Positions 2,583 through 26,884 of a DNA stretch of 62,996 nucleotides are shown in pieces. The DNA is from Akkermansiaceae bacterium (GTDB lineage: Bacteria > Verrucomicrobiota > Verrucomicrobiia > Verrucomicrobiales > Akkermansiaceae). The translations under genes were made by a program, and so were the position numbers. The stretch covers positions 1-62,996 of the forward strand of contig CANLKN010000004.1 of the NCBI GenBank assembly GCA_947491475.1, in the 5' to 3' direction. The notes beneath the pieces were generated by a model that saw only the letters and a program-made list of their open reading frames with translations, was not told the DNA's origin and searched no databases. How positions within the stretch are numbered: the stretch's first letter is position 1; each line of letters starts with the position of its first letter.

Positions 2583-3803
2583 ATGTTGGACATCGAATCG
2601 CTCATTGCGGACTTTCCCATTCTCGATCACTCCGTGAACGGGCGCAGACTCGTTTATCTGGACAACGCGGCCACCACCCAAAAGCCGATGGCGGTGCTGC
2701 TCGCTTCGCGGTATTACTACGAGGCGGTCAATGCCAACATCCACCGCGGCACCCATCATCTCGCGCGCGCCGCCACCGAGGCCTTTGAAAAAGCCCGTAA
2801 AACCGTGGCCAGCCACCTCAACGCCGCATCGAGCGATGAAGTGATCTTCACCTCCGGCACCACCGCAGGCATCAATCTGGCAGCGGCGGTTCTTTCCATT
2901 TCGGGGAGACTCAAAACTGGCGACGCAGTGCTCATTTCCGCCCTCGAACACCACTCGAACATCGTTCCATGGCAAATGCTCTGCCAGCGCACCGGAGCCA
3001 TGATCAAGGTGATTCCCTGCCATGACAACGGCACGCTCGATCAGGACGCGTTCCGCGAAATTCTCGCCGTGGGAAATGTGAAAATCATGGCGCTCACCTG
3101 GATTTCAAATGCCTTCGGGACGGTTAACCCGGTCGTCGAAATGACCCGCGCCGCAAAGGCCGCCGGAGCGCTCGTCTTGATCGACGCCGCCCAGTCGATC
3201 GCCCACCAAGCCACCGATGTGCAGGCGCTCGGTGCGGATTTCATCGCTTTTTCCGGGCACAAAATCTACGCGCCCACCGGCATCGGCGTCTTGTGGGGCC
3301 GTGCGGATTTGCTCAGCGAACTTCCACCGTGGCAGGGCGGAGGCGAGATGATCAAGGAGGTCACCTTCGAGCACACCACCTACAACGAGCTGCCATTCAA
3401 GTATGAGGCCGGCACCCCGAACATCGAAGGAGCCATCGCACTCGCCGCCGCCATCAACTACGTCAACGAGATCGGCCTCGGAAAAATCCACATCCACGAA
3501 GCCCGCTTGGTCCGCTCCTCCGCCGAGGCGCTCTCCGGTATCCCCGGCATCCGTTTCTACGGCCCGCCCGACCGCTCGGGCTCGCTTTCCTTCAACATCG
3601 AGGGACTCCATCATTACGACCTCGGCACACTGATGGATCAAATGGGAGTCGCCGTGCGCACCGGCCATCATTGCTGCCAACCGCTGATGGCCCGCTTCGG
3701 CACCACCGGCACCGTGCGTGCTTCCTTTGCCATGTATAACACCGATTCCGATGTGGAAGCTCTCGCCGAAGTCACAGCAAAGGCCGTCGGCATGCTCCGC
3801 TAG
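2583..3803 (+). CDS. sufS: Cysteine desulfurase SufS (group II)
   Basis: A 406-residue PLP enzyme that takes sulfur from cysteine, leaving alanine, and passes it on as persulfide for Fe-S cluster assembly. YLDNAATTQKP near the N terminus, the PLP lysine in SGHKIYAPTGIG (K227) and the persulfide cysteine in RTGHHCCQPLM (C364) are all present; position 364 is also the E. coli SufS position. The usual SufS motif is HHCAQP, so the second cysteine is a small variation. The frame is open upstream of 2583, but only the ATG at 2583-2585 gives the family N terminus (MLDIESLIADFPIL). No sufBCDE genes are adjacent. coaC follows after 16 bases, suggesting a two-gene transcript. Confidence 0.95.
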   Translation: MLDIESLIADFPILDHSVNGRRLVYLDNAATTQKPMAVLLASRYYYEAVNANIHRGTHHLARAATEAFEKARKTVASHLNAASSDEVIFTSGTTAGINLAAAVLSISGRLKTGDAVLISALEHHSNIVPWQMLCQRTGAMIKVIPCHDNGTLDQDAFREILAVGNVKIMALTWISNAFGTVNPVVEMTRAAKAAGALVLIDAAQSIAHQATDVQALGADFIAFSGHKIYAPTGIGVLWGRADLLSELPPWQGGGEMIKEVTFEHTTYNELPFKYEAGTPNIEGAIALAAAINYVNEIGLGKIHIHEARLVRSSAEALSGIPGIRFYGPPDRSGSLSFNIEGLHHYDLGTLMDQMGVAVRTGHHCCQPLMARFGTTGTVRASFAMYNTDSDVEALAEVTAKAVGMLR

Positions 3804-3819
3804 ATATACATTGAATCCC

Positions 3820-4374
3820 ATGAACATCATCCTCGGCATTTCCGGTTCCATCGCCGCCTATAAGGCTGCCGACCTCGCATCGCAACTCGTCAAGCAAGGC
3901 CATGAGGTCCATGCGGTGATGACACGCGCGGCCACCGAGTTCATCTCGCCGCTCACACTGCAAACGCTCACCCGCAAACCGGTGCTCGTTTCTCTGGAGG
4001 ATGAGAAACACTCGTGGAAACCCGGGCACATCGACCTCGCGGACCAGGCGGACCTGTTTCTCGCGGCACCCGCGACGGCGAACTTGCTAGGTGAATTCGC
4101 CAACGGCCTCGCACCCGATCCCCTCACTTCGGTTTATCTCGCCCTGCCGCGCACGATTCCGGTGCTCATCGCTCCAGCGATGAATGGCAAGATGTGGCTG
4201 CACCCGGCCACCCAGCGCAATACGGAAATACTCAAGGCGGACGGCTGCCGCTTCGTGGGACCCGCCGAGGGTGGTCTGGCCTGCGGTTATGAAGGCATCG
4301 GCCGCATGGCAGAGGTGTCCGACATCCTCGCGGCCGTGGCGTGCCAATGCGCCAGCCATGCCAACAAACCCTGA
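3820..4374 (+). CDS. coaC: Phosphopantothenoylcysteine decarboxylase (CoaC-type flavoprotein)
   Basis: A 184-residue flavoprotein of the HFCD family. It decarboxylates 4'-phosphopantothenoylcysteine to 4'-phosphopantetheine in coenzyme A synthesis. The N-terminal flavin-binding GISGSIAAYKAADL, the active-site histidine region KPGHIDLADQADLFLAAPAT, the substrate-binding PAMN (APAMNGKMW) and the CGYEGIGRM loop with its conserved cysteine are all visible. In most bacteria this domain is fused to the CoaB ligase as CoaBC; here the protein ends after the decarboxylase, so a separate coaB must lie elsewhere. The ATG at 3820 is 16 bases after sufS. Confidence 0.9.
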   Translation: MNIILGISGSIAAYKAADLASQLVKQGHEVHAVMTRAATEFISPLTLQTLTRKPVLVSLEDEKHSWKPGHIDLADQADLFLAAPATANLLGEFANGLAPDPLTSVYLALPRTIPVLIAPAMNGKMWLHPATQRNTEILKADGCRFVGPAEGGLACGYEGIGRMAEVSDILAAVACQCASHANKP

Positions 4375-11276: not shown

Positions 11277-11284
11277 TTGTATCA

Positions 11285-11315
11285 ATCTGAAATTTGAAAT
11301 CTGAAATTTGAAATC
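11285..11315. repeat. 14-bp AT-rich tandem repeat between ppx-like gene and ppk1
   Basis: ATCTGAAATTTGAA occurs at 11285-11298 and again at 11299-11312, followed by ATC. It fills most of the 42-base spacer between the ppx-like stop codon and the ppk1 start. The AT-rich unit contrasts with the GC-rich surroundings. It could help melting, processing or ribosome access between the two cistrons, but I see no defined function. Confidence 0.8.
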
Positions 11316-11318
11316 ATT

Positions 11319-12878
11319 CTAGCGCTCCTCATCGATCACCACGCCGAGGCCGAAGACCTGCTCGAAGAGATCGGCCTTGGAGGCCATGGCGAGACGCTCG
11401 ACTGCGGCATCGGCCAGACCCGGCAGGCGGATGTGGAGTTTGCCGTGATCGCGGCGGATTTCAATTTGGGAAACCCGCTGGGCGTGGGTGCGCTCGAGGG
11501 CGTCGGCGACACGCAGCAGCGCTGCGAGCTTGGCAACGCGGATGCGGTCGTCGGTGCCGAGCGCGGCGTAGCCCGGGTGGTCGAGCACCGGCACCGAGTG
11601 GCGGTGGTAGCGGGCGACCAGTGCGACGATATTGACGTCCATGCGGTCGAGCCCGAAGACCTCCGAGTTCAATATGATGTATTCCGAGTGCTTGTGGTGG
11701 GCACGCGGGCTTACATAAGTGCCCACCTCGTGGAGGATGGCGGCTACCTTGAGCAGCAGCGCGTCATGCGGCGTGAGATGGTGGAGGTCGGCGAGTTCGT
11801 CGAAGAAGCGGGCGCAGAGGTTGGAGACGTGCTCGCAGTGGCCGGGGTCCGATTGATAGCGCTCCGCGAGAATGCGCGCCGAGCGCAGCACGTCCTCGGT
11901 GAAGCTGCCGCTGAGCTCGCGCGAGACGAGCAGGTCATGGAGCAGTCCTTGCTCGTAATTGCTGTCTGGAATGTGCGGCGACTCAAGCTTGAGGGTCTCG
12001 GCCACCGCGAGGTTGATCTCCAGCGCTGGCAGCAACGCCTCGGCGGTCTGGTAGTCGAGGTGGAATCGTTTCACCAATTCGACGTCGCTCATGCGGGACC
12101 CCTCCGCAGTGAACTGCCGCAGTTTCTTGAGCGGGCAGACGCCGCCGGGGTCGGTGAGCGATGCGGCTACGGATTGCAGTTCGTAGCCGATGATCACGAG
12201 CCCGTCGATGGGGACGTCCGAGTAATCAAAACGCAGTTGTGCGAGATTTCCAGAAGCATGCTCGCGGATCAGACGCAGCAATGCCGGGCCTTCCACGTGG
12301 GAGGATTCCACCGCTTCGCGGGTGCGGTGGGTGCCCATGCGGTAGCTGGTGTAGCGGGTGATGCGGCCGTTTTGAAACAACAGCGCGCGGGTGTTGCCCG
12401 GGCCCACATGGACCACCAGCGTGCTGTCCTTGCGCATCGCCGGCAGGTGGTGCAGGCGGCGGCGGGTTTTCAAATAAATCAAGCGCGTCATTTCACCATC
12501 GTCGATGGTGCTGACGCGCAGGCCGCAGGCGATGCGGATGCGGTTCATCACGGTTTCGTGATTGCGCGCCTCGCTGAGGATGTTGGTGGCGGCGGCGCGG
12601 GTGATGCCGTGGGGATCGAGGCCTAGTTCTACCAACGATTTCTGATAACCCTTGATGATCGAGACCACCCGTTCGGCGGTGGCGAGGCTCACGCTGCCGT
12701 GCCGGAAGATGTCCCGGGCGACGGGGGCCGGTTGTTCGAGGAAATCCACCGGGGTGAGCGTGCCGTCCGTCAACCGCTCCGCCACCATCATCGAAACCGA
12801 GCCGGCGCCGATGTGCAGGGCGGTGCTGAGGGCTTGCGCCGGGGCGGCGGATTTCACGGGTTTCCGGATTTTCGGCAT
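11319..12878 (-). CDS. ppx: Ppx/GppA family exopolyphosphatase-like protein with HD domain
   Basis: The 519-residue length fits E. coli Ppx (513). An N-terminal ASKHA-type phosphatase part (about 15-310) is followed by the HD-like C-terminal part with KVAAILHEVGTYVS and HHKHSEYII, close to the LHEVG and HRHSAYI of Ppx. Ppx removes terminal phosphates from polyphosphate. Two phosphate-binding loops look changed: the first reads ALHIGAGSVSMMVAE where an Asp is usual (DxGSNS), and the second reads VVHVGPGNTRAL where DIGGGS is usual. The glutamate region is DDGEMTRLI. It may have altered activity or act as a polyphosphate or nucleotide sensor. The neighbours ppk1 and ppk2 support a link with polyphosphate. 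Confidence 0.85.
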   Translation of the reverse strand: MPKIRKPVKSAAPAQALSTALHIGAGSVSMMVAERLTDGTLTPVDFLEQPAPVARDIFRHGSVSLATAERVVSIIKGYQKSLVELGLDPHGITRAAATNILSEARNHETVMNRIRIACGLRVSTIDDGEMTRLIYLKTRRRLHHLPAMRKDSTLVVHVGPGNTRALLFQNGRITRYTSYRMGTHRTREAVESSHVEGPALLRLIREHASGNLAQLRFDYSDVPIDGLVIIGYELQSVAASLTDPGGVCPLKKLRQFTAEGSRMSDVELVKRFHLDYQTAEALLPALEINLAVAETLKLESPHIPDSNYEQGLLHDLLVSRELSGSFTEDVLRSARILAERYQSDPGHCEHVSNLCARFFDELADLHHLTPHDALLLKVAAILHEVGTYVSPRAHHKHSEYIILNSEVFGLDRMDVNIVALVARYHRHSVPVLDHPGYAALGTDDRIRVAKLAALLRVADALERTHAQRVSQIEIRRDHGKLHIRLPGLADAAVERLAMASKADLFEQVFGLGVVIDEER

Positions 12879-12981
12879 CGGCGGAGTCCAGCGCGGGATG
12901 GGGTCGGATTCAATCCCGAATGTGTGCCATCGTCACCAGTCGGGGCTTGTCATCCACGGGCTCAGCCGGGATAAGCGACTC

Positions 12982-13809
12982 ATGCCAGTCACAGGAGCGT
13001 TGGAAAAATACTGGGTGAAGCCCGGCAGCAAGGTGGATCTATCGAAGATCGACAGCAACGAGAGGAGCCTGTTCCGGGGGAAGGACAAGAGCGAGTTCGA
13101 GCCGCAGTTTCGCAAGCTCCAGCACGAGCTCCAGGAATTGCAAAAACTGCTCTACGCCCAAAACAAGCACCGCATCCTGGTGGTGATGCAGGCGATGGAC
13201 ACCGGCGGCAAGGACGGCTGCATCAAGCATGTATTCTCCCACATCGATCCGCAGGGCATCCACGTCCGCTCGTTCAAGAAGCCCAGCGAGGAAGAGCTGT
13301 CATATGATTTCCTGTGGCGGGTGCATTCCAAGGTTCCGCACCGCGGGCAATTGGTGATCTTCAACCGCAGCCACTATGAGGACATCATCGCAGTCCGCGT
13401 CAAAAAGCTGTTCCCAGACGAGGTGTGGAAACGCCGCCAGCAGCATGTGCTCGATTTCGAGAGAATGCTGGCCGAGGAGGGCACCACCATCGTCAAAATC
13501 TTCCTGCACATCTCCAAGGAAGAGCAGAAACGCCGCTTGGAAGCCCGTCTCAGCAATCCGGAAAAGCACTGGAAATTCAATCCGGATGATCTGGACGACC
13601 GCGCGCGCTGGAATGATTTCATGACGGCATACGAGGATGTGATCTCCAAAACCGCCACGAATTCCGCGCCATGGTTCGTGGTGCCGGCAGACCGCAAGTG
13701 GTATCGCAACCTGTGTGTCGCGCGCATCATGCTCGATACCATGAAGAAGCTTCACATGGAGCTGCCCGATATCGACTGGGACCCGAAATCGATCCAGATC
13801 GGGGATTGA
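12982..13809 (+). CDS. ppk2: Polyphosphate kinase 2 (PPK2)
   Basis: A 275-residue PPK2-family kinase that uses polyphosphate to phosphorylate nucleotides. The Walker A motif MDTGGKDG (residues 72-79), the SFKKPSEEELSYDFLWRVH block, the Walker B-like QLVIFNRSHYEDI, and the lid with KIFLHISKEEQKRRLEARL and KHWKFNPDDLDDR are all seen. A single domain of this size points to class I or III (nucleoside diphosphate or AMP/ADP substrates); I cannot decide which. The ATG at 12982 is chosen because family similarity starts there. The gene is divergent from the ppx-like gene, with 103 bases between the starts. Confidence 0.95.
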   Translation: MPVTGALEKYWVKPGSKVDLSKIDSNERSLFRGKDKSEFEPQFRKLQHELQELQKLLYAQNKHRILVVMQAMDTGGKDGCIKHVFSHIDPQGIHVRSFKKPSEEELSYDFLWRVHSKVPHRGQLVIFNRSHYEDIIAVRVKKLFPDEVWKRRQQHVLDFERMLAEEGTTIVKIFLHISKEEQKRRLEARLSNPEKHWKFNPDDLDDRARWNDFMTAYEDVISKTATNSAPWFVVPADRKWYRNLCVARIMLDTMKKLHMELPDIDWDPKSIQIGD

Positions 13810-14684: not shown

Positions 14685-15614
14685 TTAAGAGGAAATTTCG
14701 TTTGATTCGCGGCGGCGGAAGAGCAGCGGAGTAAGCACGGCGAGCGTGAGAATGGCCGACATGGCGGAGGCCGCGGGCAGGTTGCGGTCGGCGAAATTGC
14801 GCTGCGCGATCTTGTTGCCGATCATTTGTCCGTCGGTTCCGCCGACGAGATCCGGCACCACATAGGAGCCGAGCATCGGCACGAAGACGATGACCAGCGC
14901 GGTGGTGATGCCCTTGCGGATGCCGGGAAGAAAGACCGACCAGAACGAGCGGAAGGCGGTCGCGCCGAGGTCGCGCGCGGCGTCGAGCAGGCCGAAGTCG
15001 AACTTCTCGGCGGCGGCATAGAGCGGCAGGATGGCGAAGGGAAGATAGGTGTAAACACTCACCAGCACCACCGCGCCGGAGTTGAAGAGCAGCGAATCGT
15101 TTTCCCCTAACAGATGGATGGCGCGCAGGAAACGGGCGAGGCCGCCTTCGGAATGCAGGATCTGGTTCCAGGCGAAAACGCGGATCAGGAAATTCGTCCA
15201 GAACGGCACGATGATGAGCAGCAGCAGCCGCGGCCGCCATTCCTTGCGGACCCGTGCCACAAACCAGGCCACCGGCAGCGCCAGTGCCACACAGATGCCG
15301 GTGGTCAGCGCGCTGATCCAGAAGGTGCGCCAGAGCAGGACCAGGATGCTGCTTTGGGTGAAGATTTCAAACTGCCCGAGCGTCCAGCCAGCGCCAATAC
15401 CGCCCGCAGGATCCGTCTTCCGGAAGGCGATGGCCAAAACCAGCAGGGTTGGAACCAACACAAAGAAAGCCAGCCAGCCGAAACTGGGCAGCGTGGCGAG
15501 GATTTCCTGGCGGAGTTTCTTCAAGGCCGTTGCGGACGGGACTCCAGCACGGACTTGCGCATGAAGCGACGATTTTCTCGCGGCTGCGCGCTTTGCGAAT
15601 GCCCATTCAGTCAT
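14685..15614 (-). CDS. potB: ABC transporter permease, PotB-like
   Basis: A 309-residue permease with the EAA loop DAARDLGATAFRSFWSVFLP and the typical LIRVFAWNQIL and VPMLGSYVVPDLVGG segments of PotB. An N-terminal basic extension of about 35 residues precedes the first membrane helix. I chose the ATG at 15612-15614. It overlaps the last 8 bases of the PQQ fusion gene, so the two are probably translationally coupled. potC-like follows after 16 bases. The coupling of a polyamine-type permease to a quinoprotein is unusual. Confidence 0.9.
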   Translation of the reverse strand: MTEWAFAKRAAARKSSLHAQVRAGVPSATALKKLRQEILATLPSFGWLAFFVLVPTLLVLAIAFRKTDPAGGIGAGWTLGQFEIFTQSSILVLLWRTFWISALTTGICVALALPVAWFVARVRKEWRPRLLLLIIVPFWTNFLIRVFAWNQILHSEGGLARFLRAIHLLGENDSLLFNSGAVVLVSVYTYLPFAILPLYAAAEKFDFGLLDAARDLGATAFRSFWSVFLPGIRKGITTALVIVFVPMLGSYVVPDLVGGTDGQMIGNKIAQRNFADRNLPAASAMSAILTLAVLTPLLFRRRESNEISS

Positions 15615-18558
15615 CGAGCGTAAAGGCCACATAGGCGTCGCCCATGGGGCCGCCGAGTTTGCCGCCGCCGGTCGCGGCGATCACGATGTATTGCCTGCCA
15701 TCGATCTGATAGGTCGCGGGCGGCGCGTAGCCGCCCCACGGCAGTTTTGCTTTCCAGAATTCCTTGCCCGTCGCCGCATCGAAGGCGCGGATCATTTGAT
15801 CCTGGGTGCCCGCGCAGAAAACCAGTCCGCCGGCCGTTACCATCGCTCCGCCGAAATTTTCCGTTCCGGTGCCGGTGATCCCCTGCGCCGCAAGCTCGGG
15901 ATGCTCGCCAAGCGGGACGCGCCAGATGATTTTGCCGCTCGCCAGGTCGATGCAGTTCAAGGTGCCCCACGGCGGTTTGGATCCCGGATAGCCCTCGTGG
16001 TCGTTCAAGCGCGGGTAGCCATTGTGGGTGAAATTCGGCGGCGCGTTTTCTGCTTCCGATGTCATTGGCCGGTCGCGCATCAGAAGGAAATCGACAAGTG
16101 CGCTGCGGTCCGTATCCGGCATCGGCGGCGCGGGCGGCATGATGTTGCGGCCCTTGGCGAGGATTTCGATGATTTGCTGCTCATTGATCCGGTGCCGCAG
16201 TCCCTGCAAGGGTGGTGCCATGCCCAGGCCTTCCTTTTCCAGGCCGTGGCAGGCCATGCAATACATCCCGTAAATTTCCCCGCCTCTCGTCAGCGGCTCG
16301 CCGGGTTTGCGCGGTGATTCCTCCGAGCGGAAAACAGTGACGTTCCACGGCACGTGGTTCGCGCTCACATAGAGCTTTCCGGCCTTGGGATCGACCGCCG
16401 CGCCGGTCCATTCCGCGCCGCCGTGGATGCCGAAAAGCGCGGTTGGCCGGCCTTCCTCGAAGGGCTCGAACCATCCCATGTTCGCTCTTGAAAGCTGCTG
16501 CCTGACAAACGCGTTGGCCGCCGGTGTGCGTTCCGTCACATCCTCCAGCGAGAAATCCTTTTTGGTGAAAGGCTCGGGCAGCTCGACATCCGGCTGATAG
16601 GGTGAGGTGCGTTCGCCCGGCAGCTTCGAGACGGGTGCGCGCCGCAAGCGGAAGGGATGGAGCAATTCGCCGGTCACACGATCTAACAACAACGTGTTGC
16701 CGATTTTTGTCACCGCCGCCACCGCCGCGATCTTCCTGCCATCGCGGGTCACCGTCACCAGGTTCGGCGGCGCGGCAATATCCAGATCCCAGATGTCATG
16801 GCGGATCTCCTGAAAATGCCAGAGCCGCGCGCCCGATTTCATATCAATCGCGATCAGGCAGTTGGCATATAAATTATCGCCGCGGTGATAAACGCCGAGG
16901 AAGTTCGGCTTGGGTGAGCCGGTCGTCACGTAGGCGATGCCGCGTTCTTCATCGAGCGACATGCCGCCCCAGCAGTTCGCGCCGTGGCCCGGCGCGTTCC
17001 ATGTTTCCGCGCCTGTCTCTCCGGGCTGCGGAACGGTGTGAAAGGTCCAGAGTTTCCGGCCCGATTCGAGATCGAACCCATAGACATTCCGGTCATAACC
17101 GGCGAAGGCGATGATGTTCTGATAGACCACCGGCGCGACGACGCTGGCACCTGAGCGGATTTTCCCACCCTCGCCAAAGCTGGCCACCGGCTGCCCTGTC
17201 AGCGGATCGAGCGCATGAAAAAATTCACCGGCGGCAAAAAACAGCCGGTCATCTCGACCGGCCGGATTTTTCCAATAAGTCAAACCACGGTGGGCAGGTC
17301 GCCCATCGGGCTTGAAGCGCCATTTTTCGATGCCAGTCCTGCCATCGATCGCCACCAGGTGATTGCCCACGGTGGGCGCGTAAATCACGCCATTCACGAT
17401 CACCGGATTGCACTGGATGTTTCCCGTGCCGTCCTTCGAGTGATAGGTCCACGCCGGTTTGAGCTTGGCGACGTTTTGAGTGTGAATCTGCGCCAGTTGT
17501 GAAAAGCGCGTGCTGCCGTGGTCGCCGTGCGAGCGCGTCCAGTCGTTGGCAGCGCCCGGTGTTTCCGTATCGGCCGCTAGAGTGAAGTTTTCCGGATTGC
17601 CTGCCGGGATCACCCTGAACTCCGGCAGCCTTGCCCGCGCCGCTGGGTCTTCCGCATCCCAGTAGGCATCTGTCTTGAGATTTCCTAACAGGTTTTCGAG
17701 GCCTTTGAGATTGCCTTCCAATATCACCTCCGCGTCTTCCATCAAATGGCATAGAATGCCTACCGGCCCCTTCCATCCGCTGTCCAGGACCACCTCGATC
17801 ATCGCTTGCTCCTGATCGCCCGCGCCGATGGGAAGGATCTTTTCGCCTCCCTTGACCATGCCGTTCAGGTTGAGTGCGAGCAAATGCGGTTTCATGCGGC
17901 CGAAGAGCTCCTTGAAGCCGTCGATGTGCGGGTGGCCGTGATGGAAATTGTAAACGATGCCGACGTTCGGCATCTTCAACTCCTCGATGATGGCGATCTG
18001 GTTGTCCGGCTCGCCGAACCAGCCGCCATGGTTGTAGAGCGCGAGCTTGCAGCCGTGCTTCAGCGCTTCCTCCGCCACCGGGCGGATCTGGTCCGCCACC
18101 GCCTTCACTTTCGCCGCCTGATCCGGCGCGGCCGGATCGCCCACCACGGTCCAGAGTTGCGGGCGGATCTTGTGACGCTCGATCACCTCGAAAATCCCGC
18201 GGTTCGTCTCATCCATGGCGGCGGAGACCCACCATGCGGAAATTTCAATTCCGTGGGCCTTCATCGCCTCCACTTCCGCATCGAAGGTCGGGATGTGTTC
18301 GGCGCGCCAATCGTAGGCGAGCTTGGTGATGCCAAGGCGATTGAGCATTTCCGCCCGCTCGACCGGCCCACGCTGTTTCGAGTCAAATGGCACGATGCAC
18401 CACGCGGCGATGTTTTCGCGCTGGAAGATCGAGAAGTCGCGGGCTTGCACGTGTGGAGAGCTCAACAGCAGGCTCGCAAGGGCGAGGACTTTGGCGATGG
18501 TCGCGTGTCGGACAGGAGACGCGCTGTGCTTCTGGAGGGGGCTTGTTGGTGGCTTCAT
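15607..18558 (-). CDS. Exported fusion: TIM-barrel sugar isomerase-like domain + PQQ dehydrogenase with embedded cytochrome c
   Basis: The 983-residue product (ATG at 18556-18558) starts with a signal-like segment (to about residue 39, ending in SSPHVQA). Residues about 45-295 look like a xylose-isomerase-like TIM barrel, with GCKLALYNHGGWFGEP and NVGIVYNFHHGHPHI as likely metal ligands. From about 340 a PQQ beta-propeller follows (WTRSHGDHGSTRFSQLAQI, APGHGANCWGGMS, LWHFQEIRHDIWDLD). A cytochrome c module is inserted near 763-830 with heme motif CMACH (C767 to H771) and likely axial Met in MPPAPPMP. The propeller then closes with CIDLASGKIIWRVPLG and GTENFGGAMVTAGGLVF. It should oxidise a sugar or alcohol in the periplasm and pass electrons to the heme. 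The barrel fusion is unusual. A divergent AraC gene is likely its regulator. Confidence 0.85.
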   Translation of the reverse strand: MKPPTSPLQKHSASPVRHATIAKVLALASLLLSSPHVQARDFSIFQRENIAAWCIVPFDSKQRGPVERAEMLNRLGITKLAYDWRAEHIPTFDAEVEAMKAHGIEISAWWVSAAMDETNRGIFEVIERHKIRPQLWTVVGDPAAPDQAAKVKAVADQIRPVAEEALKHGCKLALYNHGGWFGEPDNQIAIIEELKMPNVGIVYNFHHGHPHIDGFKELFGRMKPHLLALNLNGMVKGGEKILPIGAGDQEQAMIEVVLDSGWKGPVGILCHLMEDAEVILEGNLKGLENLLGNLKTDAYWDAEDPAARARLPEFRVIPAGNPENFTLAADTETPGAANDWTRSHGDHGSTRFSQLAQIHTQNVAKLKPAWTYHSKDGTGNIQCNPVIVNGVIYAPTVGNHLVAIDGRTGIEKWRFKPDGRPAHRGLTYWKNPAGRDDRLFFAAGEFFHALDPLTGQPVASFGEGGKIRSGASVVAPVVYQNIIAFAGYDRNVYGFDLESGRKLWTFHTVPQPGETGAETWNAPGHGANCWGGMSLDEERGIAYVTTGSPKPNFLGVYHRGDNLYANCLIAIDMKSGARLWHFQEIRHDIWDLDIAAPPNLVTVTRDGRKIAAVAAVTKIGNTLLLDRVTGELLHPFRLRRAPVSKLPGERTSPYQPDVELPEPFTKKDFSLEDVTERTPAANAFVRQQLSRANMGWFEPFEEGRPTALFGIHGGAEWTGAAVDPKAGKLYVSANHVPWNVTVFRSEESPRKPGEPLTRGGEIYGMYCMACHGLEKEGLGMAPPLQGLRHRINEQQIIEILAKGRNIMPPAPPMPDTDRSALVDFLLMRDRPMTSEAENAPPNFTHNGYPRLNDHEGYPGSKPPWGTLNCIDLASGKIIWRVPLGEHPELAAQGITGTGTENFGGAMVTAGGLVFCAGTQDQMIRAFDAATGKEFWKAKLPWGGYAPPATYQIDGRQYIVIAATGGGKLGGPMGDAYVAFTLDD

Positions 18559-18677
18559 GATGAAAATTCGACATCCTTTACTTCGGGCATCAGCCGTTTC
18601 TTGCAAATTTTTTCACTATCCATCGGGCTTGCACTGGCGTCCCATTGATTCGGAAGGGTTGCCCCTCACCAGCGCGC

Positions 18678-19625
18678 ATGAAAAAAACATCAGTCCCTCA
18701 GCAGCTCCTGATTGATCGCATGGGGCCACAGGTGGATGTGGCGGGATGCTGGCACTTCGCCAAGCCGGTTCATTTCCGCTACCATGTGCTGTTCCACCAT
18801 TTGATTCTGGTGGAGCGGGGTGGCGTTCTGGCCAAGACGCCCCAGGGAAATTTCGAGGCACGGAATGGCGACCTCCTTTGCCTGCGTCCGGCGCGATGGA
18901 GCGAATACGACACCACGCCGGACACGATCACCTATCAGGCGCAGGTGGCTTTCTCCGCGCCGCCATTCGATCGGACCACGCCGCAATTGCCGGGCCTCGG
19001 TTTATTGCCCGTGCTGATCCGCCTCGGGACCGGCTTCGAACCGGTGCGGAAGGCATTCGAGACAATCTGCAAGGAACTTCCCCAGCCCGGCTTGCGTGCG
19101 CAGGTGCGGGTGAAAACGGCGGTCTATCAGATGCTCGGGGAAATCGTCAACGCCCTGACCGGGGAGGAATACGAGCACCTGCGGGCGGATCCATGGGAAA
19201 AGGTGCGCGCAAAGCTGACGGCATTCGACGGCTCCAAGCCGGATCTCGCCGGGCTCGCCCAGGGCATGGGAATCACCCCGCAGCATTTTCGCCGCCTCTT
19301 CAAACAGCGCTTCGGCATGACCGCCCGGCAATTTCAATTGGCCGCCCGTTTGCACGAGGCCATCCGCCGCCTCCGTGAAGGCCAGGAGCCGGTGAAGGCC
19401 ATCGCCTACGACATGGGCTTCGCCGACGGCAAGACCCTCACCCGCTGCATTCAGAAACACCTCGGTCTCACGCCGCGGCAGATCCGCCGAAATCCGGAGG
19501 AATTGCCACCGCTCAGCCAGGCGATGCTCGAGCCCTTCGCGCTCAACCGCCACCTCCACCGCGTGGGCGAGTCTCTAGACAACGTGATGAAGAGCTACGC
19601 GCCGCAGGAAACCCCGCTCGGATGA
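18678..19625 (+). CDS. AraC family transcriptional regulator
   Basis: A 315-residue regulator with an N-terminal cupin-like sensor (VERGGVLAKTPQGNFEARNG, then GDLLCLRPARWSEYD) and a C-terminal pair of HTH motifs (LAGLAQGMGITPQHFRRLFK, KAIAYDMGFADGKTLTRCIQ, then KHLGLTPRQIRR). I prefer the ATG at 18678 because the 11 residues of the longer frame add nothing recognisable. It is divergent from the PQQ fusion gene (119 bases between starts) and upstream of the glycosidase cluster, so it could control either or both. The ligand is probably a sugar, by context only. Confidence 0.88.
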   Translation: MKKTSVPQQLLIDRMGPQVDVAGCWHFAKPVHFRYHVLFHHLILVERGGVLAKTPQGNFEARNGDLLCLRPARWSEYDTTPDTITYQAQVAFSAPPFDRTTPQLPGLGLLPVLIRLGTGFEPVRKAFETICKELPQPGLRAQVRVKTAVYQMLGEIVNALTGEEYEHLRADPWEKVRAKLTAFDGSKPDLAGLAQGMGITPQHFRRLFKQRFGMTARQFQLAARLHEAIRRLREGQEPVKAIAYDMGFADGKTLTRCIQKHLGLTPRQIRRNPEELPPLSQAMLEPFALNRHLHRVGESLDNVMKSYAPQETPLG

Positions 19626-19746
19626 GTCATCGCCCACCTTCGGGCGAAAATGTTCCATTTCGCCCCTTTTTTGCACGGATTGGGTCCCTTTGATGGATTG
19701 TCCCGCGGATCGGGCGCTCATAGGTTCGCTGCTGCCCCCCGCCATT

Positions 19747-22674
19747 ATGAACCGAACAATCCTTCCAATGAGACTCCAACAGACCGCATTCGCCCTCGGC
19801 ATGTTTGTCTGTGGGCCCTTCACACAGGCGGCAGTGGACTACATCGACAGCTCTTCAATTTCACCACCGCCGACGCCCGTGCCCGTTTCCAAGACGGCCG
19901 TGCACTATGTGGATTTCAATGCCGGCACATGGAATGCGGACCCGGCCTACAGCACGACGGTGTCGGACACGAGATATGTGGCAGTGGAGCCACAGAAGCT
20001 GGCCGGCCAGCCGCTCGGAAGCTATGCGGCCAGGGCAGGCGGCGGCGTGGATGTCATCTGGACCTACGGCGGCTTCAAGAAAGAGGACACCGGCCTGACC
20101 GGAAACTACCAGGCCTTTGCCATGAACCTGCAGGCCACCGGCAACCAGTGGGCGTTCTGGGGCGCGAGGGTCGAGGGTGGCGTCGATTACCTGTATTTCG
20201 ATCCTGCGGTTTCGAAGTATCTCAAATTCGACAGCGCGTGCCTGGGCGATGGGATCTATGCCGCGCTCAGCCCGTCCAAGTCGGGACCAGGCCCGTTGTC
20301 GGCATTCGGGGCGCGGGCCGAAGGCGGGATTGATTTCCTTTATTACAACGAGGGCACCCGGCAGACGGTGCGCCAGACCACCGGGCTGGCTGGGCGGTAT
20401 CGCGCGCTGGCATTCACGGATGACGCCGCCGCGGGAAATGATCCGCCGGGCAACTGGGCGGCGAGGGTGGATGGTGGATTGGATTACTTTTACCTGGAAG
20501 GTGGCGAGGCGAAACTACTGCCCTTGTCAGCGAATCTGGCGGACACCCAATATGTCGCGCTCGAAGCCGTCAAACAATCCGGGTGGCGGGCGGGCGTCTA
20601 TGCGGCACGTGCCGATGGCGGCATCGATGTGATCCTGCTCGAAGGCGACGGCAGCGCCGGGAATCCCCATCGGGCGGCGAAACAAAACACCGCACAGATC
20701 CTGCCGGATGCCTCGTTCGGGGCACTGGCGTGGAATGCCAGCGACCAAGCCTATCCCCAGACGCACGGAGATTTCTGGGCCGTGGAAGCGCCAAGGCCGC
20801 CTGCCAGGCAGATTGGCAACTGGCCGGGTGTCGCAACCGGTGGTGACATCCTGAATCCGGCGCTTTCGCTGCGGCTCGGGGTTTCCGAATCCACTGCGGC
20901 GATTGATGAACTGAGCTGGGATACCGAGGGCGGAAACCGCGCGAAGATGAATCTTCTGCGCGCACCCGTCCATGTCCGCATCCCGTCCGGTGGCCAGGGC
21001 GTCCGGATGGGGAAATCCCAAGCAAGCATTGCCAAAACCGAGGCGACCTATTCCGGGTCCGTGCTCACATGGAAAGTCCGCACGCTTGCCAATGGATTCG
21101 ACATCGAGCTGCGCAACAACAATGCCGCGGGAGCGGTCGATGCCGAGGTCGTTTTCCCATTCGATCCGCGCGCCACGCCAACCTCAATCATCGCCAATGA
21201 CTGGGACGCGCAGGACCGCTTCGCGCTTCCGGCAATCCTCTTCGCGCCGGACTTCGGCGGGTTTGTGGTGACCTGTGAGGGCGGAAACGTGACGGGGACA
21301 TTGATCGGCAGCCGCTTTGGGGTGAAGAAGGCCGATATGGGATTCTCCGTCACGGGAAATAAAACGGGAGAACCCGTGCTATTGAAATTCCGCCAGCATG
21401 TGCTGCCGCCTCCGGATGGTGTGGCTCCCTCGGAGTGGGCTAAAGTCCGCCGGAGCTGGCTCAATATGTTCAATGTGAGCAGCGAGTGGAAAAGGGCGGA
21501 TGGATCACGCGGTGCGCCAGCCGGCATCCTCTCAAACAACGTCATCAGCGACCCCGTTTCCTCCCTCATGTATTGCTACTCGCAGCCCGCGCGGCTGGTT
21601 CCAGAACTCGCTCCCGGTGTGAGCGCCGCCCCTCTCCTGCGCCGCACGCTCGACTTCTGGCTCACCCAGGAAATGAGGCCGGACGGATACATCGCCTACG
21701 TGCCAGGCGGCATCATGGGGGCGATGATGGACAGCAATGCCGCCATCCTCGGCTCGGCCGGGGATTATTATGCCATGACCGGCGACAAGGAATGGCTGGC
21801 CGCCCGGATCGAGCTGCTGGAAAAGGCCGCGGACTATCTGGCTGGGCGCGACACGAATGGCGACGGGCTGGTGGAATCCGAACAGTCCGGCAACCTCGGC
21901 ACCAAGTCGTTTGGAGACACCTACATGGACACCATCAGCAGCGGAGGCATCAACGCCCTCTGCAATGCTTTGATCTACCGAGGCTGGAAAAGCCTTGCCG
22001 CCATGGAAACGGCACTGGGCCGCAGCGAACAGGCGGCGCGCTATGCGGCGCTGGCCGACAAACTCAAAACCGCCTACATCCCGACACTCAAGACTCCCGC
22101 CGGATGGATCGGCTGGTGGAAGAGCACCGATGGCGAGCTCAACGACTACTCGCCGATGATGGTCAACTGCATCGCCGTGGAGACCGGCGTCGTCTCCCCG
22201 GCGGAGGGCAAACCGATGCTCAACAAACTCTGGAAAAAGCTCGCCGAGGTCGGCTTCACAGTATTTGAAGTGGGCCTGCCGAACAACCTCGTGCCCGTGC
22301 GCCGGGATCACCAATATGCCACCTTCGGCGGCACCAAGGAGGACGGCTCGGACACCTTCCCGCACTACTGCAATGGCGGCGTTTTCCTCGAGGACGCCAT
22401 CCGGGGAATTATCGCCTACAACATCGTGGGCGAACCGGATAAAGCCGCCACGATCTTCGACGCGATGATGGCCCGCCACATCAGGGGCAAGTTTGCCAAC
22501 GGCTCCGGCTTCAATGCCGGCGTGACCAACGAGCCGAATACCGGCCCCAGCATCTCCGACTGGAAGGGCGAACCAACCGAATACGAAGGCTTCATCCCCA
22601 AGGACTACACGTTTCTCACCGGCCTCCTGCTGCGTGATCCCGCCTGGCGGAACAAACTCGGCCTCCCGAACTAG
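19747..22674 (+). CDS. Exported glycoside hydrolase-like protein with five N-terminal repeats
   Basis: From the ATG at 19747 the 975-residue product has a signal peptide (cleavage near TQAA). Residues about 70-300 hold five related units of about 45 residues, each with an AAR or GAR followed by GG.D: SYAARAGGGVDVIW, WGARVEGGVDYLYF, FGARAEGGIDFLYY, WAARVDGGLDYFYL and YAARADGGIDVILL. A beta-sandwich region follows (about 370-580). The last 400 residues look like an (alpha/alpha)6 glycosidase barrel (YIAYVPGGIMGAMMDSNAA, RDTNGDGLVESEQSGNLG, FGDTYMDTISSGGINALCNA). The GH family and substrate are not assigned. Another ATG at 19768 is possible. It starts a same-strand cluster with the next two genes. 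Confidence 0.75.
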   Translation: MNRTILPMRLQQTAFALGMFVCGPFTQAAVDYIDSSSISPPPTPVPVSKTAVHYVDFNAGTWNADPAYSTTVSDTRYVAVEPQKLAGQPLGSYAARAGGGVDVIWTYGGFKKEDTGLTGNYQAFAMNLQATGNQWAFWGARVEGGVDYLYFDPAVSKYLKFDSACLGDGIYAALSPSKSGPGPLSAFGARAEGGIDFLYYNEGTRQTVRQTTGLAGRYRALAFTDDAAAGNDPPGNWAARVDGGLDYFYLEGGEAKLLPLSANLADTQYVALEAVKQSGWRAGVYAARADGGIDVILLEGDGSAGNPHRAAKQNTAQILPDASFGALAWNASDQAYPQTHGDFWAVEAPRPPARQIGNWPGVATGGDILNPALSLRLGVSESTAAIDELSWDTEGGNRAKMNLLRAPVHVRIPSGGQGVRMGKSQASIAKTEATYSGSVLTWKVRTLANGFDIELRNNNAAGAVDAEVVFPFDPRATPTSIIANDWDAQDRFALPAILFAPDFGGFVVTCEGGNVTGTLIGSRFGVKKADMGFSVTGNKTGEPVLLKFRQHVLPPPDGVAPSEWAKVRRSWLNMFNVSSEWKRADGSRGAPAGILSNNVISDPVSSLMYCYSQPARLVPELAPGVSAAPLLRRTLDFWLTQEMRPDGYIAYVPGGIMGAMMDSNAAILGSAGDYYAMTGDKEWLAARIELLEKAADYLAGRDTNGDGLVESEQSGNLGTKSFGDTYMDTISSGGINALCNALIYRGWKSLAAMETALGRSEQAARYAALADKLKTAYIPTLKTPAGWIGWWKSTDGELNDYSPMMVNCIAVETGVVSPAEGKPMLNKLWKKLAEVGFTVFEVGLPNNLVPVRRDHQYATFGGTKEDGSDTFPHYCNGGVFLEDAIRGIIAYNIVGEPDKAATIFDAMMARHIRGKFANGSGFNAGVTNEPNTGPSISDWKGEPTEYEGFIPKDYTFLTGLLLRDPAWRNKLGLPN

Positions 22675-22701
22675 GCATCAAATAATCACCCACCATCCCA
22701 T

Positions 22702-22830
22702 ATGAAATTCACTATTATTCCACACCGTTCGCTTCTCACACTTGCCGTGTCCTGCACCCTTGCCGGAACTGCGTATTCCGTCGAGCCGGCCATACCCGGC
22801 TACACGCCCGAGCTGAGGCTCGACGCATAG
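22702..22830 (+). pseudogene. Signal-peptide segment of the GH43-like gene, cut off by an in-frame amber codon
   Basis: ATG at 22702 opens a 42-residue frame (MKFTIIPHRSLLTLAVSC, then TLAGTAYSVEPAIPGYT) that reads as a classical signal peptide plus a short mature start. It ends in TAG at 22828-22830. The next codon continues in the same frame with DAGVILRHGDGPNQCD, the start of the downstream beta-propeller domain. So one former gene, 22702-23751, is interrupted by a single nonsense codon. Confidence 0.75.
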
Positions 22831-22839
22831 GATGCGGGC

Positions 22840-23751
22840 GTGATCCTGCGCCATGGCGACGGCCCCAACCAGTGCGATATCAACGGCGCGAGGGAGCCGA
22901 CCCTCATTTTTGAAGACGGCAAGTATTACCTCTTCTACGACGGCGGTGGCCCGAAGGGCTGGCTGGCATGCCTTGCGACCAGCACGGATATGAAAACCTG
23001 GACGAAGCACGGCCCGGTGCTCGATTTCGGCGCGCCGGGAGAGCCTGATGCCGGAGGAGCGCTCAGCCCGTGGTTCATTAAAGAGGGCGATACGTGGCAC
23101 ATGTATTACGTGACCGCCATGACCACCGGCGGGCCTCCCGGATTTGTGGCGGGGGCCCCCTACAACTCGGGCCATGCCCGGAGCAAATCGCTCATGGGAC
23201 CCTGGGTGAAGACAAAAGGCTATGTGCCCATCAAGCCCAAACCCGAAGGAGCTGGATACCCTCAATTCATGGCCTATCCAGGACATATTGTGAAAAAGGA
23301 AGACGGGGAATACCTGATGTTCTTCGGTTCCCCCGGAGCCATCGGCATTGCCCGCTCGCGGGATTTGCTCGGTGAGTGGGTCCCGGACCCCAAACCGTTT
23401 GTGGACAAGCATTTTGATCTCGAGAACTCGTCCATCTACTACGAGCCGGAAAACAAGACGTGGTTTCTGTTTGCGAATCACATCAGGGCCATTGATCCGA
23501 TGTTCACCGATGCCATCTGGGTGTTCTGGACCAAGGACCTGGAGAAGTGGGAATCGGAGAACCGGGCCATCGCTCTCGACGGCGTGAACTGCACTTGGAG
23601 CAAGCGCTGCATCGGCATGGCCACGGTGACAAGGATCGGCAACCGCCTCGCCATGGTCTATGCCGCGGCCGGCGGCGACAGCACCAGCCACCTCGGCCGG
23701 GATATCGGCCTTGCCTGGTATGACCTGCCGCTGCAATCCCCGGCCCGGTAA
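22840..23751 (+). CDS. GH43-like five-bladed beta-propeller hydrolase domain (lacks its signal peptide)
   Basis: Starting at the GTG at 22840 the 303-residue domain has repeated propeller strands such as REPTLIFEDGKYYLFYDGGG, GALSPWFIKEGDTWHMYYVT, GHIVKKEDGEYLMFFGS and NSSIYYEPENKTWFLFAN, as in GH43, GH32 or GH117 clan proteins. The exact family is not assigned. The matching signal peptide lies upstream in the same frame but is separated by TAG at 22828-22830. Unless the stop is read through or is a sequencing error, this domain would be made in the cytoplasm at best. It sits 55 bases before the next glycosidase gene. Confidence 0.7.
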   Translation: MILRHGDGPNQCDINGAREPTLIFEDGKYYLFYDGGGPKGWLACLATSTDMKTWTKHGPVLDFGAPGEPDAGGALSPWFIKEGDTWHMYYVTAMTTGGPPGFVAGAPYNSGHARSKSLMGPWVKTKGYVPIKPKPEGAGYPQFMAYPGHIVKKEDGEYLMFFGSPGAIGIARSRDLLGEWVPDPKPFVDKHFDLENSSIYYEPENKTWFLFANHIRAIDPMFTDAIWVFWTKDLEKWESENRAIALDGVNCTWSKRCIGMATVTRIGNRLAMVYAAAGGDSTSHLGRDIGLAWYDLPLQSPAR

Positions 23752-23806
23752 CCGTGCGACTTCACCATAACTTGCTCGACACTCCAAACCAACTGGAAGC
23801 AATCCC

Positions 23807-26800
23807 ATGATAAAGACATTCCAAATAGCCACGCTGAGTTTCCTGATGGCTGAACTTCTGGTTCCGGCACGAGCCGCCTCACCCGTTGAAAATGCGGGCT
23901 ATTCGGCAGCCGTGATCGAATCGAGCAAGCCGTCGCTGTATTGGGAATTCAACGAAACCAGCGGCCCTGCAAAGAACACCGTGAGTGGTTCCAAAGATGG
24001 TGTTTCTGACGCCGCAGCCTTCGGTGGTGCCGGGCCTCGGCCGGTGGATGGGCTGTTGCAAATGCCCCCGGAGAACACGTCCGCCGGGTTTGAGCGAACG
24101 GGCACCGTCAAGCATCCTTCCCTGAGGACAGGAGTCGGGGTTCCCACGGACACATACACCGTGCAGGGCTGGTTCCTTTCCACAGTGCCGTTTAGCGCCA
24201 ACGTCGTGCAGAATATCTTCGGACGAGGCAACAGCGCGGGTGAAGCCCGCGATACCGTCGGCGTGGGCGGCACATGGAATTTGAGTCCGGTTGGGAAGCT
24301 GTATTTTTACGAGCCCGTCACTGGCAAAGTCGTCGCCGGCACGACGACGCTTGCACCGAATCGCTGGTATCACGTCGTGCTGGTCCGCGACGGCACGAAT
24401 GTGAGAGTCTATCTGAACGGTCAGTTGGAAATCGACGCTCAGGAACTGGGCTGGCCCGGGGGCGATGGCGAGCAATTCGCCGTTGGCAACCGTGCGGACT
24501 ACCAGAGCAATGGTCAGCCTGCTTACGGGCTGAAGGGATTCGTGGACGAAGTGGGCGTCTGGAATCGCCCGTTGGAGTCGAGCGAGGTGAGCCGGCTTTT
24601 CTCCTTGAGCGGATTCACCCCGCCACCGCCGGCCTTCGCTTTGTTCGCCGATGCGGAAACTCCCCAACCGTCGTTTCTGGCGCAGGGCGGCAAGGCGCAG
24701 GCTGTGATTGTCGTGGGTAAGGAAAGCGATCCCTTTTATCGTTGGGTGGCAGGCGAACTGCAGCGCTATCTGCGGGACCTGACCGGAGCGGAGCTCCCGA
24801 TCGCAACTCACGATGAGGTTCCCGCCGACAAGCCGCTTCTCATCGTAGGTGGCCCGAACGCAAACCCATTGAGTGCCACAGCCGGGGAGAAAAAACTCGC
24901 AGATTTTGCCGGACTAAAGCCTGAGGGATTTATCGTCCAAACCGTGAGCCTCGCCGATCGTCCGGCCGTGCTCATCGGTGGCAATGACGAGGCTTCCACG
25001 ATGTATGCGGCCTACCAATTCCTGGAGGGCCTGGGCTTGGCCTTCCAAATCACCGGCGACATCCTGCCGCAGCAACGCCCGGATCTGAAGCTCCCTGCCG
25101 CCAGTGTGCGGATGGAACCCGATATCAAGCGCCGCGGTTTGCACATGCGGCACTTTGTCATGCCTTGGATGGGACTGGATGACTTCCGCACGATGATCGA
25201 CCAGATGGCCAAGCTCAAAATGAACTACCTGGAGTTCTATTGGTATCTCGGCGGACCGTGGGATGAATACTCCTATCGGGGCGAGAAACGGAGAATTGAG
25301 GAACAGACGACCAAAGATTCCAGCTTCCTCACCTGGCATCTGACTGCCGGACCCAATACGGCGGACGACGTGAAAATTGGAAGGGATCTCTTCAAAGAAG
25401 AGCGGGTGGTTGCCCCGGAGTTTTCAAAAGTGCAAAATCAGGATGATGCCCACAAAGTCGCGCGGGAATGGCTTCGTGAAGCCATTGCTTATGCTCATGA
25501 AAGAAAGATCAAAGTCTGGCTGGGACAGGGCGACTGTCCGCAGGTGGTCAGCAATTTCAAACACTACAGCCCGCTGGCGACCGAGGCGCACTGGGGTTTT
25601 GGCGCAATGCCTCCGGGCGATTCCGTGGGAGCGGAGATTTGGGAAGCGATGTTCAACTCAATGGTCGAAACCTATCCAGAGGCGGATGGCTACTGGCTTT
25701 GGCTGGCCGAGGTGGGGGTCGGAAACACCGCCACCCCGGAAACCCAAAAAGTTCTCCGCCAATACGATGTGGATGGCAAAGCGATTCATAATGATTCCGA
25801 CCTTGCTCTGATTCACTATGGCAGAGAGATGATGACCCGACTCAAGGCGCGCCATCCCAATGTGAAGTTCGGCCTGGCAATGCTGGCGCGATGCAGTCTT
25901 TTCCAGACATTGGACAAATACGTGCCGAAGGATGTCGCCTTTGCGAGTATGGAATCCGGGGCGTGTTGGCATAAAGGGATCCCGGTGCCGATGGAAAACT
26001 TCGGCGGCCTCGGGGCGCGCGAGACGTTTCTCATTCCGAGAATGGATGACGATGTGCATGAATTGGCCATGCAGTTCAATGTGGGGCTGTATGAGTTCGA
26101 CCGCGTCCTGGCTGGCAGCGCCCAATACGATGTCTCCGGCGTGATCCCCCAGGTGGGCAGGCTCAGGGGATTGGAGCAGAATGCCCGCTACCTTGCCGAC
26201 GGCTCATGGGATGGCCGGCTCACATCAGAACGGTTTTACGAATCCTATCTTTTGCGCCTGTTCGGCGGGAAAGCTTTCCCTGATGTCTCCAAAGCCTATC
26301 AGATTCTTCAAGAGAACGAACGTCTCACGGAGTGGCAGGGATATTATAATTTCATCAACTACATGGGGCCATTGGCTATTGATTTCAGCAAATATCAGGC
26401 CGATCCCCTCACCGCCGCTGCAGCTCCGCCCGCCAACTGGAGCGCCCCGGGGATGAATCGCGCGGGATTCTCCGCCATGATTCCCCGCTTGAACGAGGCG
26501 CTTGGCTACCTTGAAAAGGCGCGCTCCAAGGCACTGCCCGGTTCCCTCGGCGAACTGGACTACGTCATATTCAAAACGGAAAGTTATATCCTGCACCTTA
26601 AGACGCTCTGCGCGTGGCTGGATGGAATCGCCGCTTATGACCGCGTGGTCGAGGTGAAAAACTGGAACGACAATGCGGAACTCACCGGTGCCATCAGCCG
26701 CTGCAAGGACGCCTTCCTGAGGGCGCGTGATGTGACCCGTCAAAGTGCCGGACTCATCGCTGACAAAGCCAAACACGGGGATGATAAATACATCCTATTC

Positions 26801-26884
26801 CGTTATAATTTTGGTCTTGTTACACCCATTGACGAGCTTTGCGTGGCGATGGAAAAATGGACAAAACCAGGTGACCGGAAATAG
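23807..26884 (+). CDS. Exported LamG + GH20/GH67-like glycosidase
   Basis: A 1025-residue protein with a signal peptide (residues 1 to about 24). A LamG/concanavalin-like domain follows (about 35-265; WYHVVLVRDGTNVRVYLNGQ, GLKGFVDEVGVWNRPL). Next comes a domain like the N-terminal domain of GH20 and GH67 enzymes (about 285-435; FYRWVAGELQRYLRDLTGAE, PAVLIGGNDEASTMYAAYQ). A TIM barrel follows from about 440 (RRGLHMRHFVMPWMGLDD, KLKMNYLEFYWYLGG, VETYPEADGYWLWLAEVG) and a helical C-terminal part. The catalytic residues and substrate are not certain. It is the third exported carbohydrate-active gene in a row under the nearby AraC gene. The sequence appears less GC-rich than its neighbours, which may hint at transfer. 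Confidence 0.72.
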   Translation: MIKTFQIATLSFLMAELLVPARAASPVENAGYSAAVIESSKPSLYWEFNETSGPAKNTVSGSKDGVSDAAAFGGAGPRPVDGLLQMPPENTSAGFERTGTVKHPSLRTGVGVPTDTYTVQGWFLSTVPFSANVVQNIFGRGNSAGEARDTVGVGGTWNLSPVGKLYFYEPVTGKVVAGTTTLAPNRWYHVVLVRDGTNVRVYLNGQLEIDAQELGWPGGDGEQFAVGNRADYQSNGQPAYGLKGFVDEVGVWNRPLESSEVSRLFSLSGFTPPPPAFALFADAETPQPSFLAQGGKAQAVIVVGKESDPFYRWVAGELQRYLRDLTGAELPIATHDEVPADKPLLIVGGPNANPLSATAGEKKLADFAGLKPEGFIVQTVSLADRPAVLIGGNDEASTMYAAYQFLEGLGLAFQITGDILPQQRPDLKLPAASVRMEPDIKRRGLHMRHFVMPWMGLDDFRTMIDQMAKLKMNYLEFYWYLGGPWDEYSYRGEKRRIEEQTTKDSSFLTWHLTAGPNTADDVKIGRDLFKEERVVAPEFSKVQNQDDAHKVAREWLREAIAYAHERKIKVWLGQGDCPQVVSNFKHYSPLATEAHWGFGAMPPGDSVGAEIWEAMFNSMVETYPEADGYWLWLAEVGVGNTATPETQKVLRQYDVDGKAIHNDSDLALIHYGREMMTRLKARHPNVKFGLAMLARCSLFQTLDKYVPKDVAFASMESGACWHKGIPVPMENFGGLGARETFLIPRMDDDVHELAMQFNVGLYEFDRVLAGSAQYDVSGVIPQVGRLRGLEQNARYLADGSWDGRLTSERFYESYLLRLFGGKAFPDVSKAYQILQENERLTEWQGYYNFINYMGPLAIDFSKYQADPLTAAAAPPANWSAPGMNRAGFSAMIPRLNEALGYLEKARSKALPGSLGELDYVIFKTESYILHLKTLCAWLDGIAAYDRVVEVKNWNDNAELTGAISRCKDAFLRARDVTRQSAGLIADKAKHGDDKYILFRYNFGLVTPIDELCVAMEKWTKPGDRK

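Follow-up and report, generated by a model that had tools for sequence, protein, structure and literature searches.

We analysed a stretch of 62,996 nucleotides from an Akkermansiaceae bacterium (assembly GCA_947491475.1, contig CANLKN010000004.1; the whole stretch is called the window below). Its minus strand carries a gene that joins a xylose-isomerase-like triosephosphate isomerase (TIM) barrel, a pyrroloquinoline quinone (PQQ) propeller and a cytochrome c domain in a single uninterrupted frame, which runs from ATG to stop and encodes 983 residues (999 if an alternative in-frame TTG start is used). The coordinates of the gene, of its parts and of its neighbours are collected in Table 1.

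A fusion of barrel, PQQ propeller and haem domain

A sequence-only reading had described the product as an exported chain made of a barrel, a PQQ propeller and a CMACH haem domain lying inside the propeller, and both the anatomy and the export-type start hold. The N-terminus, as read from the sequence, has a basic start and a hydrophobic run, with VQA ahead of the barrel. Pfam places AP_endonuc_2 (PF01261) at residues 140–268 (E 2.4e-8; 34.4 bits, just above the cut-off of 31.1), PQQ (PF01011) at residues 340–748 (E 1.6e-142 and 476.7 bits against a cut-off of 26.7, for the best of two stretches) and Cytochrome_CBB3, over its cut-off, at residues 756–825 (E 1.3e-10). The propeller resumes behind the haem domain, where residues 857–967 match methanol dehydrogenase 4tqo_B and residues ∼903–969 match 1kb0. 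The AlphaFold model of the whole chain has a mean predicted local distance difference test score (pLDDT) of 83.6 and a predicted template modelling score of 0.68, with a dip below 50 at residues 296–300; for the barrel modelled alone the pLDDT is 93.4.

The boundary between barrel and propeller lies near residue 296, with about 10 residues between the last helix of the barrel and the propeller module, which begins with YWDAEDP. No second signal peptide was seen at this junction. The stand-alone propellers set beside the fusion have a hydrophobic signal-like stretch at the same position, and two stand-alone barrels of the same genus end just beyond the last barrel helix. A merging error is thus very unlikely given so short a junction, free of a second signal peptide, where the stand-alone parts look different; it is rejected by 27 other loci that carry both parts in one frame. 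Locus L058 has a junction nearly identical to that of the window. The third-position GC content varies from 0.58 to 0.87 across blocks of the frame. The possibility, raised in the same reading, that two genes had been merged by error near residues 300–335 therefore fails, and the barrel, the propeller and the inserted haem c are confirmed as parts of one genuine chain.

Table 1. Features of the fusion gene and of its surroundings in the window
Feature	Coordinates	Strand	Basis
Whole fusion gene	15607..18558	−	Translation and Pfam; only match in own genome at E 0.001
Predicted Sec-type signal peptide, about residues 1–39	18442..18558	−	Read from sequence; helix 17–32 in AlphaFold model
Xylose-isomerase-like TIM barrel, about residues 43–295	17674..18432	−	Pfam PF01261, model, Foldseek and VIA, columns of 74 barrels
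Junction, residues 296–300, start of YWDAEDP segment of propeller module	17659..17673	−	pLDDT <50; comparison with stand-alone proteins
PQQ propeller, first part, residues 340–748	16315..17541	−	Pfam PF01011; column counts
Inserted cytochrome c domain, residues 756–825, CMACH 767–771, likely axial M807	16084..16293	−	Pfam PF13442; columns
PQQ propeller, last part, about residues 842–980	15619..16035	−	Matches to 4tqo_B and 1kb0; strands in AlphaFold model
Downstream gene, PotB-like ABC (ATP-binding cassette) permease	14685..15632	−	Open reading frame (ORF), Pfam; best NCBIfam match PotB, under cut-off
Divergent AraC-type regulator adjoining fusion gene	18645..19625	+	ORF; Pfam HTH_18
Three glycosidase-like genes past regulator	19690..26884	+	Pfam, weakly assigned

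Occurrence, modular relatives and history

A scan with the single window protein against 84,980 species genomes yielded 56 relatives, 27 of which have both parts in one open frame (some of them clipped by contig ends). By their record titles these 27 fusions come from Verrucomicrobiota (23), Hydrogenedentota (2) and unnamed bacteria (2); in the record named Chthoniobacter flavus Ellin428 (L102) the frame has 992 residues. At locus L083 both parts are present in split frames. The fusion was found in at least 1 of 73 genomes drawn from the genus, at least 1 of 260 from the family and at least 1 of 387 in a phylum sample, each time the window's own genome, and in at least 10 of 384 genomes of a class sample (G820, G688, G660, G835, G839, G841, G706, G765, G739 and G000, the window included). 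These counts are lower bounds, as most searches scored two or three candidates per genome. The fusion is thus rare per genome, which agrees with the earlier impression of an uncommon domain order. That it is unique to this genome is rejected by the 27 other loci and by the class-sample fusions. It is the fusion and not the barrel family that is unusual, the genome itself holding 13 PF01261 matches over the cut-off.

The two parts also occur as separate genes. At L028 and L160 a barrel gene is followed by a propeller gene in an overlapping frame, and at L105 the neighbouring genes stand in reverse order, propeller then barrel. Among the 27 fusions the gap between the barrel and propeller matches is 235–264 residues in 11 and 36–81 in most others, compared with 21 in the window; the one long-linker protein scanned (L074) has a LamG domain as the insert. 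The PQQ/haem module may bear other partners where the barrel would be: ThuA at L080:6978-10067, and LamG in the second gene of L071:7455-12970, a locus with two propeller genes of this type in tandem. ThuA has reportedly been linked to 3-keto-disaccharide metabolism in rhizobia. In L097:6849-10070 (record named Opitutaceae UBA6669) the same module is fused to a different xylose-isomerase-like barrel. The metagenome records of L074, L075, L092 and L101 are titled Akkermansia muciniphila, and these titles look mislabelled.

The barrel family, in turn, occurs stand-alone, at about 300 residues, and in other company. A distant, long-branch member is fused behind an alpha-L-fucosidase domain (L125:6685-9072). 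Six long DUF6797 proteins with the barrel were scanned (DUF6797 being below the cut-off in L118); in four, of 1158–1521 residues (L114:3967-8034, L115:3106-7668, L116:4651-8124 and L119:5780-9271), the barrel comes first, then DUF6797, and a cupredoxin closes the chain, with LamG additionally in two of them. Taken with the PQQ/haem fusions, these cupredoxin-ending proteins indicate that the barrel has repeatedly been paired with small electron-carrier domains. At L105:1046-13156 a planctomycete-type cytochrome gene (DUF1585-1595 set), a PQQ gene, a barrel gene and a GDSL-DUF7133-cupredoxin gene lie on one strand.

In a barrel tree of 74 rows the fused label requires 10 changes (nine without counting the window). 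In a propeller tree of 106 rows, built by a quick method without bootstrap, it requires 17 changes with corrected labels (16 without the window); that tree has two main groups, one of 43 rows without any barrel fusion and one of 63 rows that holds all fusions. With 69 of the 74 rows kept and five long-branch rows excluded, the window barrel clusters with stand-alone barrels from its genus (99/84) and from its family (100/99.9), a placement weakly supported with all 74 rows. In the propeller tree the window sequence clusters (99) with three rows that are labelled as propellers alone. Since the window barrel falls among stand-alone barrels and its propeller beside lone propellers, a separate fusion event in the window's lineage is favoured, though not proven. 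An old fusion with repeated splitting would be a possible alternative, given the nearly identical junction of L058 and the result of the approximately unbiased test (p 0.0745) against holding the window barrel with the rest. No locus shared with same-genus barrels was seen: the blastp matches of L120 and L126 to the window, which occur on either strand, are confined to the barrel region. In the same-genus genome G254 a PQQ gene of the other clade (L121:7570-13320) lies near two genes whose relatives are found at the left end of the window (2340-4371), with 68% and 74% identity; one of the two is a class V aminotransferase.

Conserved sites and comparison with known enzymes

Among solved structures, other xylose-isomerase-like barrels match the barrel model best. 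Its Foldseek matches include the 3-dehydroshikimate dehydratase AsbF, UlaE, tagatose 3-epimerase, YcjR and, at rank 46, AtOGE (8bvk); in VIA the barrel and UlaE (3cqi_A) superimpose over 245 aligned residues with Z 21.6 and 3.1 Å. Against solved structures by sequence, the best match of the barrel profile is 4ovx with E 0.0093, followed by a match with E 1.5. Ordinary barrels of this type carry the ligands Glu/His, Asp, His and Glu on strands 5–8. Here the positions hold Tyr175, Asn204, Asn230 and then Leu269 or His271, as placed by weak alignments with 4ovx (the first two) and with L180, a barrel of the same genome (the first three), in agreement with the strand order of AtOGE. L180 has an export-type start and, by eye, all of H-x-H, D, H and E.

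Across 74 barrels of the family the first ligand column is Tyr in all; the second is Asn in 70 and Thr in four; the third is Asn in 69, Thr in four and Ser in one; column 271 is His in 66 and Glu in five. Three of the four usual ligands are therefore replaced in every one of the 74, which lack the E/H-D-H-E site. Around these columns Trp136 (74), His177 (73), His207 (73), Asn232 (73), His206 (72) and His209 (71) are near-invariant; Tyr175 and His177, His206, His207 and His209 lie at or just past the ends of strands 5 and 6. The predicted site (Y175, H177, N204, H206, H207, H209, N230, N232, H271) is thus conserved yet different from that of ordinary members. The word 'isomerase', used in the sequence-only reading, can be kept for the fold but not for a metal-dependent isomerase site: judged from sequence, it describes the fold only, and ordinary metal-dependent epimerisation is unlikely because the ligands are replaced throughout. 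A stand-alone paralogue in the same genome (L179:829-2238, contig C17) has Tyr, Asn and Thr at three ligand positions and follows a frame (101-1360) that resembles, by eye, an exported Gfo/Idh oxidoreductase.

The Mn ligands of AtOGE are His132, Asp163, His189 and, weakly, Glu233, on strands 5 to 8, and its essential base is His134 (PMC10628242). The window barrel belongs to the same fold class and, two residues beyond Tyr175 where strand 5 ends, has a histidine (His177) in the place of AtOGE His134 by strand position only. A 3-keto-glycoside β-eliminase would combine a Mn site with an adjacent catalytic His; in the window's family the His is present in 73 of the 74 barrels and three ligands are absent. 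AtOGE, PuCGE and LgdB1 are, moreover, separate proteins. UlaE, tagatose 3-epimerase and YcjR share the barrel fold with the fusion, which differs from them by the replaced ligands and the attached dehydrogenase. The different barrel of L097, in which the ligand positions read H-x-H, D, H, E by eye, is apparently metal-competent.

All 28 fused proteins share W530, N562, D588, K618 and R414 in the propeller. Of these residues, W530, N562 and D588 are aligned to the 1kb0 segments GDNLY and GDNWD, and we take them to be the stacking Trp, the Asn ligand and the catalytic Asp, respectively. The haem residues C767, C770, H771 and M807, that is CxxCH and a distal Met, are kept in 27 of the 28 rows, the remaining row being gapped. 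For an acidic Ca ligand corresponding to Glu177 of methanol dehydrogenase there are two candidate columns: 489, which is variable (E in 14 and D in one of 28), and 491, a near-constant Asp that the window lacks.

By Foldseek the propeller groups with PQQ alcohol and methanol dehydrogenases. The type II quinohemoprotein alcohol dehydrogenases 1kb0, 1kv9 and 1yiq, which rank near the top of both the sequence and the fold matches, likewise have a PQQ propeller and one haem c per chain. In type II enzymes, however, the haem domain follows the propeller and there is no barrel, whereas in the fusion the haem domain (756–825) forms an insertion ahead of the last propeller part instead of standing at the C-terminus. 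In the alignment the haem stretch of 1kv9 lies close to the C-terminus of that enzyme, and nothing in the fusion corresponds to the vicinal Cys pair of 1kb0. The best NCBIfam match of the fusion is TIGR03074 (glucose/quinate/shikimate), the membrane-bound PQQ dehydrogenases, over residues 328–747 and at 330.5 bits far under the cut-off of 832.65. The fusion model differs from that family in showing a barrel in place of a multi-helix membrane anchor, and in the inserted haem c. With this last match it is plausible that the propeller oxidises a sugar. No paper describing the barrel–PQQ–haem fusion was found in an open-licence library, and in this sense the fusion is a quinohemoprotein dehydrogenase variant for which no description was found there.

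Proposed reaction, competing explanations and genomic surroundings

Our preferred reading, put forward tentatively, is that the propeller oxidises a carbohydrate, the haem c takes the electrons and the barrel holds the oxidised sugar or eliminates from it. The propeller, with PQQ that is probably imported, would oxidise a carbohydrate hydroxyl, and the electrons would pass by way of haem c to a respiratory acceptor. The Tyr/Asn/His site of the barrel, in place of a divalent-metal site, would take the oxidised sugar and either hold it or promote proton transfer, most likely a β-elimination that frees the rest of the glycoside. Such a chain would unite in one protein the oxidise-then-eliminate route of glycoside breakdown, where 3-keto-sugars are the substrates of separate xylose-isomerase-like barrels.

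The recurrence of the fusion, the adjacent separate genes and the conserved propeller and haem residues speak for this reading, as do His177 at the place of the AtOGE base, the L097 barrel with the very set described for AtOGE, the L179 paralogue behind its Gfo/Idh-like frame and the DUF6797-cupredoxin fusions. Several points weigh against it. Sequence by itself gives neither regiochemistry nor substrate, and TIGR03074, the nearest named propeller subfamily, includes enzymes whose substrates are aldoses, oxidised at C1, or cyclitol-type acids. Column 491 is Asp in 27 of the 28 fused proteins but Asn in the window. A PqqC search of the window's genome, run without positive control, found none. 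No constant neighbour of the fusion was found: around 26 of the 27 other fusions even the most frequent Pfam family is limited to three of 72 neighbour frames at most (72 of the 95 listed, 23 having been left out by hand; the genes are crude longest frames), and the chosen neighbours have mixed functions. AtOGE and PuCGE require Mn (PMC10628242), and the window barrel is without three of the four ligands; the insensitivity of LgdB1 to added Mn is compatible with a tightly bound metal and does not exclude one. In the 3-keto-glycoside eliminase systems the oxidation is due to NAD or flavin enzymes, not PQQ/haem c (PMC7676230, PMC10628242).

A bolder form of the proposal, which we consider distinctly unlikely, is that one exported chain cleaves glycosides non-hydrolytically, with elimination by a metal-free Tyr/His/Asn barrel, and that this logic was built several times, with at least two barrel subfamilies, in Verrucomicrobiota and neighbours. 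If oxidation followed by elimination did take place, non-hydrolytic glycoside breakdown would reach the periplasm and the respiratory chain. Even with a barrel that only binds sugar, the PQQ/haem unit is seen combined repeatedly with carbohydrate-type modules, and such combinations, in genomes mostly without detected PqqC, point to dependence on the PQQ of other organisms.

Somewhat unlikely, though a serious competitor, is a barrel without catalytic function that binds carbohydrate or serves for docking and so keeps the dehydrogenase near a polysaccharide, as the LamG modules of sister proteins may do. LamG is indeed the insert in L074 and replaces the barrel in L071, and the loss of three metal ligands in all 74 barrels fits a binding role. 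Yet Tyr175 in 74 of 74 and His177, His206, His207 and His209 in 71–73 of 74, all near strand ends, make the site look used rather than decayed, and the family also has stand-alone members.

That PQQ goes unused by the quinoprotein part in this host, which would then be mostly unloaded or hold another cofactor, is very unlikely. Such a reading would agree with the distribution of PqqC, which was found in one of 26 genomes picked for carrying the fusion or the separate parts (the Chthoniobacter flavus record only, the window's genome being among the other 25). In the class sample no PqqC passes the cut-off in any of the ten genomes with the fusion; PqqE gave sub-cut-off matches only, of the same kind as in all 14 control genomes. 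However, the PqqC search works, as the Chthoniobacter flavus record and 21 of the 384 class-sample genomes over the cut-off indicate, and W530, N562, D588 and K618 are intact in all 28 fused proteins. Non-producing bacteria, E. coli among them, are known to take up PQQ, and with no PqqC found in its genome the host probably scavenges PQQ from outside. Among the 21 PqqC-positive class genomes only G714 has a propeller match at the class-search threshold.

A barrel working as a classical, metal-dependent isomerase or epimerase of sugars that supplies the dehydrogenase is in our view highly improbable: the fold does match UlaE, tagatose 3-epimerase and the 3-keto-glucoside 4-epimerase YcjR, but the usual ligands are replaced in all 74 barrels, and classical isomerases of this kind act on free sugars or sugar phosphates. 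The chance that errors of assembly or sequencing created the joined frame is negligible, for although the genome is a draft of 182 contigs, no other searched genome of the genus or family showed the fusion and the same-genus G254 and G407 keep barrel and propeller apart, the same order at 27 other loci and the junction, with its near copy in L058 and no second signal peptide, refute it for the architecture.

Around the gene, the glycosidase-like neighbours seem consistent with a carbohydrate role, while the permeases appear uninformative. The glycosidase-like trio consists of a weak six-hairpin/rhamnosidase-like protein, a protein resembling glycoside hydrolase families GH43/GH130 below both cut-offs, and a protein with LamG and a GH67 N-terminal-like domain. 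PotB/PotC-like permeases flank the 3′ side of the fusion gene; the frame of the nearest overlaps its end by 26 bases and is possibly co-transcribed with it. Farther off in the window, genes for PPK1, Ppx/GppA and PPK2 of polyphosphate metabolism lie side by side (9180-13809).

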